Shown one piece after another: positions 6,894 to 12,930 of a stretch of DNA of 64,000 bases. The position numbers and the translations under genes are program-made. Origin of the DNA: Ectobacillus sp. JY-23. GTDB lineage: Bacteria > Bacillota > Bacilli > Bacillales > Bacillaceae_G. The DNA is taken from contig NZ_CP095462.1 of assembly GCF_023022965.1 (NCBI RefSeq), forward strand, positions 496,001 through 560,000, given 5' to 3'. The notes beneath the pieces are model-generated. The model was not told the DNA's origin. It did not search any database and saw only the letters and a list, made by a program, of their open reading frames with translations. Every line of letters starts with the position of its first letter. Position 1 is the stretch's first letter.

Positions 6894-7130
6894 TCATTTT
6901 TTTATTGGTTTTTCAAGACCATATAGCTCTTCTTCTATGTTTTGTATACGTTCCGAAATAAGTTTTTGCGCGTCTTGTACCGCTTCATTATACATATACG
7001 GACCTGTTTCTTTCATCATGTAGTCTAAAAAGGCTTCTGCCTCTAAATTTCCAATTCTCTCCCATCCCTGCTCAGAAAAGTATTCTTGTATCTTTGTTGC
7101 AATATTCATTTTTTCTTCGCGTGTCATCAT
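6894..7130 (-). CDS. DUF2164 family protein
   Basis: A 78-residue soluble protein with the family core REEKMNIATKIQEYFSEQ, IGNLEAEAFLDYMM and GPYMYNEAVQDAQKLI. Function is unknown. AGGAGG lies seven bases before the ATG. Only 11 bases separate it from the ECF S-component gene, and the operon terminator follows, so it is the last gene of the cobalamin-riboswitch transcript. That may reflect position rather than a role in transport. Confidence 0.85.
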   Translation of the reverse strand: MMTREEKMNIATKIQEYFSEQGWERIGNLEAEAFLDYMMKETGPYMYNEAVQDAQKLISERIQNIEEELYGLEKPIKK

Positions 7131-7141
7131 ATAGCTTCCTC

Positions 7142-7825
7142 CTATTCTAATAACCCATACTTCCCTTTAAAACGTGTTAGTATTTTGATCCACTGTTTTC
7201 CAAATACAGCTAAGAAAAAAGCATTGGAGGCCGCATGCGCTAGATCAAAATAAAAACTTGTGACATAAGTCAGTAATAACGTTTGCCAAGTTAGCTCACC
7301 TAGAAACGTGATAAACACTGAGATATTTGTGAACCACCCAAACACAAACCCAGCTACAATACCAAACGTAATACGACCAATGTGCTTTTGCATAAACGTG
7401 TAATTTCGCAGCATACCTGTGATAAGCCCCATTAAACCCCAACCACACATTTGCCACAGTGTCCACGGTCCTTGTCCTAAAAAGAGATTAGATACAAGTG
7501 CCGCCGTCGCACCAATTAAAAAGCCAACCTCTCCCCCCAGTACCAGAGCAGAAACAATAATAACAAATGAAGTGGGTTGTACACTAGGTAGAACAGAGAA
7601 CGGCACGCGGCTCACTGCTGCAATGGCTGCCAAAACAGCAATTAACACAATCTCTCTCGATGCGAAAGCCTTTTTCTCAAAACGAATGTAAAACGGAAGT
7701 ATCGTCATAGCTAAAATTAAGATACTAATCCATAAAAAGTGTCTCGCATTCACAAATGATAGATAAGCCAATGCTCCTATCATTGTGAGACATACACCTA
7801 TGATTGCAGCATTGTGCTTGGACAT
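7142..7825 (-). CDS. ECF transporter S component, predicted corrinoid-specific
   Basis: A 227-residue membrane protein with six or seven hydrophobic segments. It resembles small substrate-capture (S) subunits, with REIVLIAVLAAIAAVSR, LGGEVGFLIGATAALVSNLFLGQGPWTLWQM and a conserved WGLMGLITGML. In an ECF transporter the S component binds the vitamin and topples on the T subunit. The corrinoid substrate is inferred from the cobalamin riboswitch and DUF4430 partners in the same operon. ATG 7823-7825 overlaps the ATPase gene end; ATG 7846 is also open, and neither has an ideal ribosome site, so translational coupling is likely. Confidence 0.82.
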   Translation of the reverse strand: MSKHNAAIIGVCLTMIGALAYLSFVNARHFLWISILILAMTILPFYIRFEKKAFASREIVLIAVLAAIAAVSRVPFSVLPSVQPTSFVIIVSALVLGGEVGFLIGATAALVSNLFLGQGPWTLWQMCGWGLMGLITGMLRNYTFMQKHIGRITFGIVAGFVFGWFTNISVFITFLGELTWQTLLLTYVTSFYFDLAHAASNAFFLAVFGKQWIKILTRFKGKYGLLE

Positions 7826-9429
7826 GTATGCACCACATCCTCCCATATTAATGCCTGTGGTAATTGCTTCCGAACAAGTCGATTAATTGCTGTTGTGTAA
7901 AAGAAGTTTTCACTAAAAAACTGTTGCGGCATATGCTCAGAAATGATTTGTCCGTCAAACAACATCACGCAGCAATCTGTGTACTTTGCGGCAAACTCCA
8001 CATCGTGTGTTGCCATCATGATGGTTGTTCCTTCCTTTTGCAACTGACTCAGCTGATTGGCAAGCTCTTCCTTCTTCTCTGGATCTAACCCTTTCGTCGG
8101 TTCATCTAAAATAAGAAGTTTTGGCCGTTGTAGTAACACACTGCAAATTGCAAGCAATTGCTGTTCACCGCCACTGCAATCATGCGGATGACGACGCTTT
8201 GTTCCTTCCATATGAAAACGAGACAACAATGCAGTGACAACCTCTTCGGGCTGTTTATAGCCAAGTTCTTGCGCTTGTAAGAACAGCTCTTCCCACACGG
8301 TATCCTGTGTAAAATGATAAGAAGGCTGTTGTGATACATAACCGATTTGCGCATCTGTTTTGTGAAGCTGCTTTCCTTCCCATAACAGCTTCCCGCGCCT
8401 AATGCTACGCAATCCTGCTAGTACAGTAAGAAGTGTTGACTTACCAGTCCCGTTTTTACCAACAAGACTTACCCATTCCCCTGTTTGAATGGCGAGAGAT
8501 AAGTTTTGCAAAATAAGCGCGCCGTTCTTTTCGTATTGAAAATAAATGCCTTTTGCTTCTAGTAAAACATTGCGTTTCTTCCTTTCATATACAGCAGACT
8601 GTACGGGTGTTAGATTTGGTAAGATTCGTTGTCCATCACGTACCGTCAGTGGTGGCACTGTCACTCCCCATTCTAAAAACAAACGCGGAATTTGTGGCAA
8701 ATATAGCCGAAGCTCATTGCGTTCCCATAAACGTGCCGTCACTTCTATAGGAGAGGCATCGTATAAAACACTTCCATTCTCCATAAATACAAGACGATCG
8801 GCAAGGGGTAATACCTCATCTAATCGATGCTCACTCATTATAATTGTTATACCAAGTTCTTCATGAATACGTTTCAGTAAAGTTAAAAACTCTTTTGCGG
8901 CGATCGGGTCAAGCTGTGCTGTGGGTTCATCCAGCAACAGTAGCCTCGGCTGCAGAATAAGAACCGCAGCTAAATTAACAAGTTGCTTTTGCCCACCAGA
9001 CAGCGTATGGACCGAACGATGAAGCAAATCCTGAAAGCCAAGAAAGCTAATCAACTCAGCAATCCGCTTTTGAATTGTACTCGTATCATACCCCAGATTT
9101 TCTAGTGAAAACGCCAACTCTTGTATCACAGTATCCATCACCAATTGATTTTCTGGATTTTGAAACACCATACCAATTTCTTGTGCAGATTGCATAGATG
9201 ACAATTCCTGCACGTGTTGTCCTTCGTACAACACTTCTCCACTGCATCGACCAATTGGCTGCAATTCCTTCTTTAGGTGACGCAACAACGTCGTTTTTCC
9301 TGAACCGGAACGCCCCGCTAATACAACAAATTGCCCCTTTGAAATCGCTAGCGACACAGAGGACAACGCCGGCTTAGTTTCATTTGGATATTGAAAAGTA
9401 AGATGTTTTATTTCTGCATACGCCACCAT
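7798..9429 (-). CDS. ECF transporter energizing subunit, two fused ABC ATPase domains
   Basis: A 543-residue protein carrying both ATPase halves in one chain. Domain 1 has Walker A GRSGSGKTT (about 39-47), Q-loop FQNPENQ, signature LSGGQKQ and LLLLDEPTAQLD. Domain 2 has Walker A GKNGTGKST (about 315), signature CSGGEQQ (about 418) and LLILDEPTKGLD. FQNPENQ is typical of ECF A subunits. Most ECF systems use two separate proteins or a homodimer, so this is the fused form. ATG 9427-9429 follows AAGGGAG. It overlaps the T gene by 22 bases and the S gene at its other end. Confidence 0.92.
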   Translation of the reverse strand: MVAYAEIKHLTFQYPNETKPALSSVSLAISKGQFVVLAGRSGSGKTTLLRHLKKELQPIGRCSGEVLYEGQHVQELSSMQSAQEIGMVFQNPENQLVMDTVIQELAFSLENLGYDTSTIQKRIAELISFLGFQDLLHRSVHTLSGGQKQLVNLAAVLILQPRLLLLDEPTAQLDPIAAKEFLTLLKRIHEELGITIIMSEHRLDEVLPLADRLVFMENGSVLYDASPIEVTARLWERNELRLYLPQIPRLFLEWGVTVPPLTVRDGQRILPNLTPVQSAVYERKKRNVLLEAKGIYFQYEKNGALILQNLSLAIQTGEWVSLVGKNGTGKSTLLTVLAGLRSIRRGKLLWEGKQLHKTDAQIGYVSQQPSYHFTQDTVWEELFLQAQELGYKQPEEVVTALLSRFHMEGTKRRHPHDCSGGEQQLLAICSVLLQRPKLLILDEPTKGLDPEKKEELANQLSQLQKEGTTIMMATHDVEFAAKYTDCCVMLFDGQIISEHMPQQFFSENFFYTTAINRLVRKQLPQALIWEDVVHTCPSTMLQS

Positions 9430-10265
9430 AGCCACTCCCTTCCTTCTATAACTAACGGTATACTCACATACAAGATGCACAGCATGTATGAAAGGATACC
9501 TATACCACGTAACATAAGCGATGGTAGCTTTGGATAGATGACCAAAACACCGATTCCTTGAGACGCAAGAACTACAGCACCAAGAAATAGTCCCAGTAAA
9601 ACTGCAAAAAGCCGGTAATCTCGATTGCTCATTCTGTAACGAATGTATGTACTTCGCTTTGTTGTCCCAAAACCTCTGGCGCTCATTGAGTCAGCAGTTT
9701 GCAGGGCCTCTTCCAAAGAACATACAAGAAGCACCGATAAAAGCTTCATTCCCTGTGATACCTTCGCTTTTATACCAACTCCCTTATGCTTATGCACGAG
9801 TTGAATTTGTCCAAGACGTCTCATAAACAGTGGTACAAATCGAATGGAAATCATAGTTAAGAGCGCTACTTTTGGGGAAACACGCGAAAATAAATATAAA
9901 AATTTATGACTCGACACAATTGTCTGATAAGATACAAAAGCAAAGGACACCGCCAAAAATGACAGTGCCATTGTATAGCCATACGTAATTGCCTCAAGTG
10001 TAACGGGATTATCTTGCACATAAAATAAAATCGTACTGCCGCGATGGGTAAACAGCGGATTCATCACTGCGATAAAAACCGCAATCACAAATGAACTGAA
10101 CAATAAAGGCTTCATCGTGGTGCCGTGTATATAATTTAATAGAGATAAAAGCAACACCATACTCAGTAAAATAAACGGATGCAAAAGTGTCATTGCTAAC
10201 ACGATAACTCCTATATAATAAGAAAATAAAACAGCCGGATGAAATTCCGCAAATGCGCTTCTCAT
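9408..10265 (-). CDS. ECF transporter T component (CbiQ family)
   Basis: A 285-residue protein with an N-terminal group of membrane helices, a cytosolic coupling region and a final helix pair. SMSARGFG near residue 200 contains the Ala-Arg-Gly motif by which ECF T subunits contact the ATPases. Its role is to link ATP hydrolysis to movement of the S component. Its ATG overlaps the lipoprotein stop (ATGA, 10262-10265), showing tight coupling. An in-frame ATG 10 codons upstream lies inside the lipoprotein gene and is not favoured. Confidence 0.9.
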   Translation of the reverse strand: MRSAFAEFHPAVLFSYYIGVIVLAMTLLHPFILLSMVLLLSLLNYIHGTTMKPLLFSSFVIAVFIAVMNPLFTHRGSTILFYVQDNPVTLEAITYGYTMALSFLAVSFAFVSYQTIVSSHKFLYLFSRVSPKVALLTMISIRFVPLFMRRLGQIQLVHKHKGVGIKAKVSQGMKLLSVLLVCSLEEALQTADSMSARGFGTTKRSTYIRYRMSNRDYRLFAVLLGLFLGAVVLASQGIGVLVIYPKLPSLMLRGIGILSYMLCILYVSIPLVIEGREWLWWRMQK

Positions 10266-10957
10266 GGGTTTTCTCCGTCCACTGTATATACCCATTCAAT
10301 CACATCACCAGTTTTTACTGCTGTTTTTCCAGCACCAGTTTTCGCTTGTACGCCATTTCGCTTGTAAATCCAGCCACTCAATGGCCCCTTATCTTTTTCA
10401 TATAAGTTGTTAATACCTTCTATATAAATAGAAGCACCTGCACCACTGTATTCCATTTGAATTCCTTTTTTCTTCACAGTTCGTGCCAAAACAGAAAATA
10501 CCGTATCGCCATTTTCCAGTTCCACTTCTGTTTTTCCTAAAATGGTATTACCAGCACCGCGAATGGTTAAAAATACGCTTTCCGCTTGTTTGACCGGTTC
10601 CGCTGGTTGTGGCGGCGGTAGAGTTGATGGTGTTGATGGTGTTGATTGTGTCGATGGCACCGAAGAACTAGATGGCGGCGGGCTTGCAGGTACAGGTTCT
10701 GGTTTGGAGGCTTTCGGTTTGACTGCTTCTTGTACCGGCGCATTACTTTGTTTACTTTCTTGTTTTGGCTCTTCAGGCTTTGCTTCCTCTGTTGGTTGTG
10801 CCTTTTGTTCCGCTGGTTGCTCTTGTACCTTAGGGCTTGCTTGTTCACTCACCTTCGGCTTTTCCTGCTTTATGTCTGTTTTCGTTTTTGTTTCCTCTTC
10901 ACCGTTACATCCCACCAAAGCAACAAATAAACCAAGCGTTATCATCCATTTGTACAT
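10262..10957 (-). CDS. DUF4430 lipoprotein, transcobalamin beta-domain-like
   Basis: A 231-residue lipoprotein. The signal MYKWMITLGLFVALVGC ends in lipobox LVGC, so it is anchored to the outer face of the membrane. A long Lys/Glu/Pro/Gln- then Ser/Pro-rich spacer (about 20-125) lifts a C-terminal DUF4430 domain (about 128-231). This contains GDTVFSVLARTVKKKG, YSGAGASIYIEGI and GPLSGWIYKRNG. DUF4430 is the fold of the C-terminal part of human intrinsic factor and transcobalamin. It is the second gene of the cobalamin-riboswitch operon and probably hands corrinoid to the S component. Confidence 0.88.
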   Translation of the reverse strand: MYKWMITLGLFVALVGCNGEEETKTKTDIKQEKPKVSEQASPKVQEQPAEQKAQPTEEAKPEEPKQESKQSNAPVQEAVKPKASKPEPVPASPPPSSSSVPSTQSTPSTPSTLPPPQPAEPVKQAESVFLTIRGAGNTILGKTEVELENGDTVFSVLARTVKKKGIQMEYSGAGASIYIEGINNLYEKDKGPLSGWIYKRNGVQAKTGAGKTAVKTGDVIEWVYTVDGENP

Positions 10958-10972
10958 AATATCACATCCTTT

Positions 10973-11001
10973 AAAAAGCAAGCAGGGGCATCTACGCCCC
11001 C
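10973..11001 (-). terminator. Intergenic hairpin, possible partial terminator inside the cobalamin operon
   Basis: GGGGC-ATCTAC-GCCCC lies just after the stop of the wall-anchored protein gene. On the minus strand TGCTTGC then TTTTT follows. It could reduce read-through so that the abundant surface protein is made in excess of the transporter, or protect the upstream message end. Confidence 0.5.
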
Positions 11002-11007
11002 GTCTCA

Positions 11008-12594
11008 TTATATAATTCTTCTCCAAACTAGAACTGCAGTCATAATAAGTATGAATCCTGCAGCTAGACTGGACCAAAATACTGTGTCAAGCAGTGCTGT
11101 ATCAGGAAGCGTTTGTTTGACTTCCCCTTTTACTGGTTCTGCTGTTTTCGTTTCGCTTGGTACAGGTTTAGTAACTGTTTCTGTCGGTACTGAAATTTCT
11201 GGTGTTTCTGGAATAGATGGTTGAGATGGCTCTGGTGTTGTTGGTTCACTTGGCGTTTCTGGTTCGTTAATTGGTTCACCGCTCCAATCGAAAATTGAGC
11301 CCTTTTCTTGTGTAAAGTACGTGTATTGTACTAACGCATACAGTGCTTGCTCAGATGAAAGCGCATCGCTTGCTTCACTTGTATGCTGCCATTTAAATCC
11401 ACCGTCTGTTTGTTGGAAGGTAACGAGATTTTCAATGACATTCGCTTCTTTCGTCCACTCCGCATCTGTAGGGTCAATATCCAGAATGGATAAAGCTGTA
11501 AGTACCAATGCAGTGCTGTTGGCATTTTGATCAAAGCCGCCATCCTTACCTTGCATACTTTGCAAAAGTTTTAAGGTTGTTTCTTGCGCTTTTGCTACTT
11601 CCGGCTTCTCACTATACGGTGCCAATGCAATCAGCATCATACTATTTGTATCCGCATCTGTGCCCCATCCACCTTCAGCTCGTTGCTGTGATAAGATTGC
11701 ATCTACAAGCTTCTCGCGGCTCCAAAATGCGCCAGCAGGAATATCATACTTTCTACTATCTAGTGCCAATAAAGCAGCGCTGTAAGCATAAACATCAGCA
11801 AGTGTTTGGTCATTGTATAACTTCTCAACTAAATTTTGATTTGCAAACTTTGTAGGGTCACTTCCAATAGCATTAATTGCCAAAATTGTTTTTGCTAATT
11901 TGCCGCCTTGCATTCTTTTATTTTGTACATTATCTTTTAATTGCTCTATGTAACTCGCTTTTACATCATCAGAGATTACTGCACCTGAGCGCAACAACCC
12001 AATGGCTTCCCACTCAGAATTGATACCGTCTCTTAATAGATAGGCAGCCGCATCGGCAATCGCTTTATTTGTATCTACTTCCCTTGGTGTAGTTCCTGGG
12101 TCTGGTGTTGTAGGCGGTTCCTTAACCGGCTCTAGTAAACTCAGATCGCATTCGCTGATTTTTTTTAACTGCTCCTTCAATGTATCAGTAGGCGCTGTAT
12201 TCCAATCTTCAATAAATCGCATGGCAATAATATCACCATTCTTTACTTGGTAACCACCTACTCCTACCATCGCCATTTCGTTATTTGTTTCCAGCGCCCA
12301 ATAGCTTTGCTTATACTTCTCACCAGCAACAAGACCGTCAATACCTGTTAGGTATAACGTTGTTCCTGTGCCACTGTACACCAGCTTATTCGGAAATACC
12401 TCGTTCAATACATCAAATGCTGTTGCACCTTCTTCAAACTCTACCTTCTTTGGACATAAAATTGCTCCGCGTTCTGAGTCTCCAACAACAACAAGCGTTG
12501 CTGTACGTCCCTCAGCAAACACCACGCCAATATTCGCAAACGTCGACACCACCATACATACGGTGAGGACGAATGCAGCAAGCCACTTCTTCAT
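11008..12594 (-). CDS. Wall-anchored transcobalamin-like protein: DUF4430, alpha/alpha repeats, LPDTA signal
   Basis: A 528-residue exported protein. A signal peptide (about 1-27, ending VFA) precedes a DUF4430 beta domain (about 30-115, with TAFDVLNEVFP, YSGTGTTLYLTGI and SYWALET). A Pro/Thr linker leads to an alpha/alpha-barrel of prenyltransferase-like repeats (about 155-440: LLRDGINSEWEAIGLLRSG, RAEGGWGTDADTNSMMLIAL, GKDGGFDQNANSTALVLTAL, QQTDGGFKW). A Pro/Thr/Glu spacer and TLPDTA, a hydrophobic helix and RR form a sortase signal. This is the domain set of intrinsic factor in reversed order. It is the first gene behind the cobalamin riboswitch, so corrinoid capture at the cell wall is inferred. 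ATG 12592-12594 follows AGGGGG. Confidence 0.9.
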   Translation of the reverse strand: MKKWLAAFVLTVCMVVSTFANIGVVFAEGRTATLVVVGDSERGAILCPKKVEFEEGATAFDVLNEVFPNKLVYSGTGTTLYLTGIDGLVAGEKYKQSYWALETNNEMAMVGVGGYQVKNGDIIAMRFIEDWNTAPTDTLKEQLKKISECDLSLLEPVKEPPTTPDPGTTPREVDTNKAIADAAAYLLRDGINSEWEAIGLLRSGAVISDDVKASYIEQLKDNVQNKRMQGGKLAKTILAINAIGSDPTKFANQNLVEKLYNDQTLADVYAYSAALLALDSRKYDIPAGAFWSREKLVDAILSQQRAEGGWGTDADTNSMMLIALAPYSEKPEVAKAQETTLKLLQSMQGKDGGFDQNANSTALVLTALSILDIDPTDAEWTKEANVIENLVTFQQTDGGFKWQHTSEASDALSSEQALYALVQYTYFTQEKGSIFDWSGEPINEPETPSEPTTPEPSQPSIPETPEISVPTETVTKPVPSETKTAEPVKGEVKQTLPDTALLDTVFWSSLAAGFILIMTAVLVWRRII

Positions 12595-12625
12595 ATCTAC
12601 TTCCCCCTTCATTTTTGAGCCCAAT

Positions 12626-12645
12626 AAAAAAAGCCCGTTACGGGC
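12626..12645 (-). terminator. Riboswitch-controlled terminator
   Basis: GCCCG-TAA-CGGGC followed on the minus strand by seven T residues, 31 bases before the first gene and downstream of the cobalamin aptamer. It is the expression platform for transcriptional attenuation: cobalamin-bound aptamer favours this hairpin. Confidence 0.85.
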
Positions 12646-12698
12646 GTGCGCAAGCATATATGTACTTACACAACACCTCCCTATTCCTCGTAGGATTT

Positions 12699-12868
12699 CG
12701 GTGCATCGTGCATAGGCAGGTCTCCTGGCTCGTGTGTCGTCAATTTTGTGCGCCTTCCCGGGTAACAGTGGCTTATGCACAAAATCTCTTCACTTACAGT
12801 GGCGGGACCGCGTCGGATTCACACCGACTTCCCTTTTAAACATAGCGAGCGCTCGCTCACTATGCACC
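12699..12868 (-). promoter_or_regulatory. Cobalamin riboswitch
   Basis: Read on the minus strand, the region has the class hallmarks in order. There is an outer helix (GGTGCATAG pairing with CTATGCAC), AAGGGAAGTCGGTGTGAATCC, CGGTCCCGCCACTGTAAGTG, AAGCCACTG, CCGGGAAGG and GAGCCAGGAGACCTGCC. These correspond to the AdoCbl-type aptamer with its B12-box. It lies between a good promoter and a T-rich terminator, so it should switch off the transport operon when cobalamin is plentiful. The rest of the stretch from 12595 to 13037 holds only that promoter and the start region of ybaK. Confidence 0.96.
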
Positions 12869-12901
12869 TATACTCGTCACAATATTCGAAATTATGATAC
12901 T

Positions 12902-12930
12902 ATTCTACTATGGAATTATGATTCTGTCGA
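12902..12930 (-). promoter_or_regulatory. Sigma-A-type promoter of the cobalamin-uptake operon
   Basis: On the minus strand TCGACA (-35), a 17-base spacer and TAGAAT (-10), each one base from consensus. The predicted transcript starts about 25 bases before the riboswitch outer helix. Confidence 0.7.

Follow-up and report, generated by a model that had tools for sequence, protein, structure and literature searches.

Operon, riboswitch and importer

The stretch of DNA analysed here (the window) covers 64 kb, corresponding to positions 496001-560000 of the single-contig, 3.89 Mb genome of Ectobacillus sp. JY-23 (NZ_CP095462.1). Its minus strand carries an operon in which a cobalamin riboswitch is followed by genes for a surface protein, a DUF4430 lipoprotein, and the EcfT, fused double ATPase and S component of an energy-coupling factor (ECF) importer, in that order (Table 1). 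With the starts chosen here, the lipoprotein and T genes overlap by 4 nt, the T and ATPase genes by 22 nt and the ATPase and S genes by 28 nt, which confirms the single minus-strand operon with overlapping genes described in an earlier note on this DNA. We consider that the operon as a whole probably serves high-affinity corrinoid scavenging, with capture at the wall, hand-over by the lipoprotein and import through a CbrT-like ECF transporter. What the earlier note had observed was thus confirmed, whilst its interpretation, a relay parallel to the animal B12 carriers, was partly supported.

In an Rfam scan, RF00174 was the sole match above its gathering score within the window; it exceeded the threshold of 31.5 bits (E 1.8e-30) with the whole model covered, bearing out the claim that a cobalamin riboswitch heads the operon. 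The promoter proposed earlier is suitably positioned ahead of the riboswitch, but such promoter-like sites were no commoner in the scanned region than in shuffled sequence (10 versus 14.0), and it is listed as a candidate. T-tailed hairpins numbered seven in the scanned region, compared with 4.3 (standard deviation 2.2) in shuffles.

All three importer components were recovered above Pfam or TIGR cut-offs, as expected from the initial description: EcfT matched CbiQ (27.9 bits, cut-off 25), the S component matched ECF_trnsprt (43.4 bits, cut-off 30.7), and the ATPase gene contained two ABC_tran stretches and scored 374 bits on TIGR04520 (cut-off 315). Compared with PDB sequences, the S component matched 6fnp at E 2.9e-14 over residues 52-224, with the next match at E 0.17; we take 6fnp to be the ECF-CbrT complex of Lactobacillus delbrueckii. 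With an S component homologous to CbrT, an EcfT and two ECF ATPase domains all present, the operon is predicted to encode an ECF importer of the CbrT type that would, by homology, transport cobalamin. Its riboswitch class and closest S-component relative both agree with the proposal of a riboswitch-controlled corrinoid importer. ECF-CbrT of L. delbrueckii is reported to import cobalamin and cobinamide, with nanomolar binding (Santos 2018; PMC5997447), and a CbrV-CbrU-CbrT operon has been named on plasmid pMF1298-5 (PMC6722938). The window operon has in common with these a CbrT-like S component, an EcfT, ECF ATPases and a B12 gene context. It differs from the L. delbrueckii system, where one ECF module serves this and other S components, in possessing a dedicated module with fused ATPases, an S component extended at its N-terminus by a membrane hairpin, and the additional DUF4430 lipoprotein and wall-anchored alpha/alpha protein.

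The substrate of such an importer might, instead of complete cobalamin, be a corrinoid precursor or a different tetrapyrrole; CbrT accepts cobinamide in addition to cobalamin (PMC5997447), and an ECF importer for heme has been reported (PMC7299338). Both the riboswitch class and the relationship to CbrT speak against such a substrate, as does the failure to find CobB/CobQ in the host, where salvage genes were not searched for; we regard this alternative as quite unlikely.

The lipoprotein is one of two extracytoplasmic proteins of the operon with a Pfam DUF4430 match (56.3 and 62.7 bits, cut-off 23.8), and with its lipobox this upholds the original assignment. The names in print for cobalamin ECF components presumably stem from SEED. 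One of these, 'Additional lipoprotein component of putative cobalamin ECF transporter' (PMC9963975), likewise denotes a lipoprotein linked to such a transporter, and we infer that it refers to the DUF4430 lipoprotein; in the portion of the source available it is a name only, with the surface protein outside its coverage. As CbrT, CbrU, CbrV and the lipoprotein component are all printed names, the importer and lipoprotein are already known by prediction and the surface protein is the new part. In the excerpts of the literature on bacterial DUF4430 proteins, no B12 role appeared beyond this lipoprotein name and one gene neighbouring rtpR.

Table 1. Features of the operon and its surroundings, in positions of the window
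Feature	Position	Strand	Remarks
Sigma-70-type promoter candidate, TCGACA-17-TAGAAT	12902..12930	-	10/12 consensus positions
Cobalamin riboswitch aptamer RF00174, complete	12698..12886	-	123.3 bits, model 1-189 of 189
Terminator-like hairpin GCCCGTAACGGGC-T7, candidate expression platform	12633..12645	-	Between aptamer and first gene
Surface protein, 528 aa	11008..12594	-	Signal peptide, DUF4430, alpha/alpha barrel, Pro/Thr linker, LPDTA anchor
DUF4430 lipoprotein, 231 aa	10262..10957	-	LVGC lipobox, long Pro/Glu/Gln linker, DUF4430 at residues 150-225
EcfT, CbiQ family, counterpart of the name CbrV	9408..10265	-	Pfam
Fused double ECF ATPase, counterpart of the name CbrU	7798..9429	-	TIGR04520 374 bits, two stretches
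ECF S component, CbrT-like, 227 aa, extra N-terminal membrane hairpin	7142..7825	-	PDB sequence match
DUF2164 gene, co-directional passenger, probably outside the transporter	6894..7130	-	Pfam 85 bits

The extent first given for the operon, 6894-12930, holds from the riboswitch through the S component. The DUF2164 gene at its far end directly follows the S gene in only three of 17 compared operons (the window, L062 and L064); it was therefore rejected as a part of the transporter and left out of the operon.

Recurrence of the layout

We scanned 100 genomes (the host's own and relatives, mostly of the same order) with the window surface protein, which matched in 24, and in 16 of these, the own genome included, the match contained a long alpha/alpha stretch. 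In all 15 relatives with such a match, the order of surface protein, DUF4430 lipoprotein, T, double ATPase and S component was kept, with two surface genes lying within the conserved order at L074, and RF00174 scored above gathering in 14 of the 15, one of these matches being partial (38.6 bits). From the eight further genomes without a long alpha/alpha match five loci were compared, G040, G076 and G092 of the scan being left out of this follow-up. At each of the five, a DUF4430-type protein (138-189 aa) sits beside a CbrT-like protein (166-184 aa) under a cobalamin riboswitch, and no EcfT match was found at these solitary loci; at L079, two open reading frames (ORFs) on the other strand gave ATPase matches of ~80 bits. 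The S components of 12 dedicated operons (227-242 aa) have, in an alignment, ~50 extra N-terminal residues that are membrane-like by hydropathy and that the five solitary CbrT-like proteins lack. By way of speculation, the lipoprotein or the dedicated T component might dock at this extension.

So that the surface protein would not bias the choice, a second sample was obtained by scanning a genome collection with the S component alone and keeping the best 80 of 569 relatives, a selection that therefore favours close relatives. As at least three of the 15 relatives (L108, L109 and L138) recur among the 80 loci, the two sets are themselves not independent of each other. The loci include Paenibacillus, Bacillus, Neobacillus, Oceanobacillus, Sporosarcina, Desulfosporosinus, Desulfotomaculum and lactobacilli. 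Hidden Markov models for DUF4430 and the alpha/alpha region were built here and iterated on these same 80 loci, and the riboswitch model used for them was sequence-only and built from 13 aptamers. T and double ATPase genes were present at 77 of the 80 loci, a separate DUF4430 protein at 74, an alpha/alpha protein at 69, and both of the latter at 67. A riboswitch match was detected at 68 loci. In 66 of these it lay on the same strand and upstream, the median distance to the first DUF4430 or alpha/alpha ORF being 163 nt; 40 of these 66 also had a terminator-like hairpin, a count made without a control. The synteny of riboswitch, DUF4430 and ECF genes that the earlier note had proposed searching for thus recurs in 15 of 15 relatives and in most of the 80 loci, and chance synteny was rejected on the basis of the order kept in the relatives together with the S-selected loci.

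The surface protein and the animal B12 carriers

Within the window surface protein, DUF4430 occupies residues 56-127 and the alpha/alpha barrel approximately residues 170-445, and inspection of the sequence revealed a C-terminus composed of LPDTA, a membrane stretch and a WRR tail. The alpha/alpha repeats themselves remain below Pfam cut-offs (Prenyltrans, 21.5 of 26.5 bits; Cobalamin_bind, 17.4 of 25). Nevertheless, the Pfam DUF4430 match, the LPDTA tail and the helical barrel predicted by AlphaFold together sustain the view of a wall-anchored DUF4430 and alpha/alpha protein. Across the loci, domain architectures varied widely (beta-beta-alpha in 21, beta-alpha in eight, alpha-beta in eight, alpha-beta-beta-alpha in seven, and others), and in several lactobacilli the alpha and beta parts are separate genes. 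The longest run of beta domains in one surface protein was nine; it occurs in a 2063 aa protein (L115:369-6560), in which nine consecutive DUF4430 domains precede two alpha/alpha units split by another DUF4430. An LPxT-type motif (mostly LPxTA) with a membrane tail ends 27 of 80 alpha/alpha ORFs, and of eight other surface proteins scanned with Pfam, five have SLH domains at the end, two from one locus have Big_6 there, and one carries CWB2. Such exchangeable anchors, to which a dockerin and cohesin pair described below may be added, support a surface location. Separately, a sortase gene of the host (L011:2341-3685), one of three sortase matches in the genome, adjoins a gene whose product has an MPKTG-type tail.

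Intrinsic factor, transcobalamin and haptocorrin all combine an alpha/alpha barrel with a DUF4430-type beta domain, and both domains are present in the models obtained here. We generated AlphaFold2 models for residues 28-447 of the window protein from 35 sequences (predicted local distance difference test (pLDDT) 91.3, predicted template-modelling score (pTM) 0.73), and for a relative of alpha-then-beta order from Paenibacillus sinensis (L117) from 20 sequences (pLDDT 94.6, pTM 0.90). PF14478 was found at E<=0.01 in 35/35 and 18/20 members of these sets, which were picked for having the domain. The window model is helical in the repeat region and aligns there with alpha/alpha barrels. Its Foldseek ranks 1-11 were transcobalamin chains (E 2.2e-6 to 3.5e-5, template-modelling (TM) score 0.38-0.46), followed by terpene synthases from rank 12 (4.2e-5) and haptocorrin at rank 23; many of the Foldseek rows are chains of a few recurring proteins. 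The human transcobalamin beta domain alone reached a TM-score of 0.74, on its own length, against the window model. For the L117 model, ranks 1-15 were transcobalamin, haptocorrin and intrinsic factor (E 4.7e-11 to 7.7e-9, ~400 columns), and the next match was a farnesyltransferase (5.7e-5).

A number of results weigh against this reading of the protein and its operon. The order in the window protein is beta then alpha, the reverse of that in the animal carriers (L117 and L134 are alpha then beta), so its match with transcobalamin is mainly to one domain, with a best TM-score of about 0.43-0.46. PF01122, the animal alpha domain, scored 17.4 bits on the whole protein and 18.4 on residues 28-447, below the cut-off of 25, such that filing the protein under this family was rejected; it was found at E<=0.01 in just 1/35 members and in 0/20 of the alpha-beta set. 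By VIA Z, the alpha/alpha half came closer to terpene synthases and cyclases (up to 22.0) than to human intrinsic factor (18.8), and when both domains of an alpha-beta relative were superposed on animal carriers the root-mean-square deviation was about 19-20 Å, the models being ligand-free. When a profile was built from the DUF4430 domains of the lipoproteins, it matched no PDB chain at E<=0.1, and Pfam DUF4430 was not matched in the SLH-anchored proteins of L075 and L076 or in one of the two at L074. Finally, 14 of the 80 S-selected loci had no upstream same-strand riboswitch match (12 had none and two had one on the other strand); the 12 without any match comprise five lactobacilli and five contigs of <12 kb, amongst others. 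Accordingly, the description of the surface protein as intrinsic-factor-like stands insofar as transcobalamin leads the Foldseek list with haptocorrin and intrinsic factor among the matches, and falls short in its reversed order, its PF01122 score and its VIA Z proximity to terpene cyclases. Intrinsic factor, whose human form had been singled out for comparison with a predicted structure, did appear for the window model, at ranks 33 and 40.

Public annotation would instead make the alpha/alpha protein a secreted terpene cyclase or prenyltransferase-like enzyme, and the best VIA Z values, to squalene-hopene and drimenyl-diphosphate cyclases, as well as Prenyltrans matches at E<=0.01 in 29/35 members, are in keeping with this. 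Squalene-hopene and other class II terpene cyclases bear the acid motif DxDD. This motif followed by T, S or A was seen in 0/35 and 0/20 members, and DxDD of any kind in only 2/35 (L139 and L128, in both cases ahead of the barrel) and in none of the alpha-beta set. The enzyme reading was rejected because no DxDD lies within the barrels; with the signal peptide, the wall anchor and the B12 gene neighbourhood also contrary to it, we hold it to be very improbable. A thioester (TED) adhesin was likewise rejected: PF07678 matched weakly in 14/35 and 8/20 members, but CG[EQ]Q occurred in 0/35 and 0/20, and residues 170-447 of the window protein contain no cysteine. In three plasmid matches the alpha/alpha protein is annotated as a prenyltransferase/squalene oxidase repeat protein, an LPXTG protein and, in a relative, a 'terpene cyclase/mutase'. 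Another plasmid gene, equated with it by place and size only, is annotated as 'fucose-binding lectin II'. CbrT-like importer operons also occur on Lactobacillaceae plasmids typed as mobilizable (L182 and L183), where a DUF4430 gene and a gene of surface-protein size, in one case annotated as a lectin, adjoin the importer. Among the literature matches listed, no alpha/alpha and DUF4430 wall protein for B12 was described.

Even with a corrinoid importer in place, the wall protein might capture something else, such as another organism's B12-loaded protein or a polymer, leaving all small-molecule binding to the lipoprotein and S component. CbrT alone is reported to bind cobalamin at the nanomolar level (PMC5997447), and a carrier is therefore not strictly needed; the five solitary DUF4430/CbrT loci have no alpha/alpha match, and L089, L094 and L099 pair lipoprotein and importer without an alpha/alpha protein. 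Against this, the alpha/alpha protein is the first DUF4430 or alpha/alpha ORF in 62 of 68 riboswitch loci (57 with and five without a DUF4430), and its predicted models match B12 carriers best by Foldseek. We judge a different wall ligand to be unlikely and favour corrinoid capture by the surface protein.

Probable corrinoid requirement, proposed mechanism and a second operon

The host genome encodes several B12-binding proteins. We detected a methylmalonyl-CoA mutase (1202 bits); MetH and an IcmF-type mutase were each matched on a truncated piece, at 926 bits (cut-off 1010.85) and 984 bits (cut-off 1500), respectively. A B12 radical-SAM type protein and a regulator resembling CarH both scored well below curated cut-offs. 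No CobB/CobQ was found, the sole GATase_3 matches in the genome being PdxT, PurQ and HisH; by this test the enzymes are absent and de novo synthesis is unlikely. Taken with the presence of MetH, methylmalonyl-CoA mutase and the IcmF-type enzyme, this means that the host probably needs external corrinoid. Five cobalamin riboswitches were found in the genome: that of the window, three in tandem before a second operon, and one before a gene for a cobalamin-independent methionine synthase (metE-type, L011:3896-6459), in line with what one would expect if the host favours MetH while B12 is available. Four strong FecCD permeases form two adjacent pairs, none of them close to any of the five riboswitches, and one of the four may be BtuC.

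From the layout, low cellular coenzyme B12 would cause the riboswitch to let transcription pass through the hairpin before the first gene. The sortase-anchored surface protein so produced would, judging by its fold and context, most likely bind corrinoid at the wall, from where it most likely passes to the membrane-bound DUF4430 lipoprotein. The lipoprotein may then present the corrinoid to the CbrT-like S component, which by homology would be driven by EcfT and the fused ATPases. BtuG and BtuH of Bacteroides are outer-membrane lipoproteins with other folds. Both are reported as surface B12 binders (BtuH, PMC8941943; BtuG, PMC6143338, cited in PMC6593275) that likewise catch B12 ahead of an importer, whereas the proteins described here are Gram-positive wall proteins beside an ECF importer. 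They also differ from the animal carriers in being wall-anchored and often multi-copy, in the domain order of the window protein and in the modelled placement of the domains.

As a tentative generalization, and one with a little less than an even prospect of holding, Bacillota walls may display relatives of the animal carriers, often in multiple copies and via exchangeable anchors (sortase, SLH, CWB2 or cohesin-dockerin), where they would trap corrinoid and transfer it by way of a DUF4430 lipoprotein to a dedicated CbrT importer, with the animal carriers sharing ancestry with this bacterial two-domain family. If the wall proteins do bind corrinoids, a function would be provided for genes currently annotated as terpene cyclase, prenyltransferase-repeat protein, DUF4430 protein or lectin, and a surface-capture step would be added to ECF transport. 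Moreover, bacterial proteins composed of the same two domains would then offer a test of where intrinsic factor and transcobalamin came from. Microbial communities are considered to be shaped by competition for corrinoids, and B12 uptake in Gram-positive bacteria was thinly covered in the literature surveyed.

A second, paralogous corrinoid operon lies elsewhere in the same genome (L010:4108-13331, genome positions 2849107-2858330), behind the three tandem riboswitches. It encodes an 884 aa surface protein, a 219 aa cohesin protein, a DUF4430 lipoprotein, T, a double ATPase and S. At the C-terminus of this surface protein lies a dockerin-like module (20.9 bits against the PF00404 cut-off of 22.9, E 4.2e-4), and the cohesin protein has an N-terminal membrane stretch and scored 28.9 bits on PF00963 (cut-off 24.1). 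A genome of another genus (G240, locus L181) holds the same set behind two tandem riboswitches, with a cohesin protein 69 % identical, and these two were the only genomes of 299 with a match. These arrangements suggest that a cohesin-dockerin contact, in place of sortase anchoring, can keep the trap at the surface. Cohesin-dockerin pairs outside cellulosomes are known. The second operon resembles them in placing a cohesin protein with a membrane stretch beside a surface protein with a dockerin-like end; in one paper that mentions cohesin, dockerin and cobalamin together the context was adhesion, whilst that of the second operon is B12 uptake.

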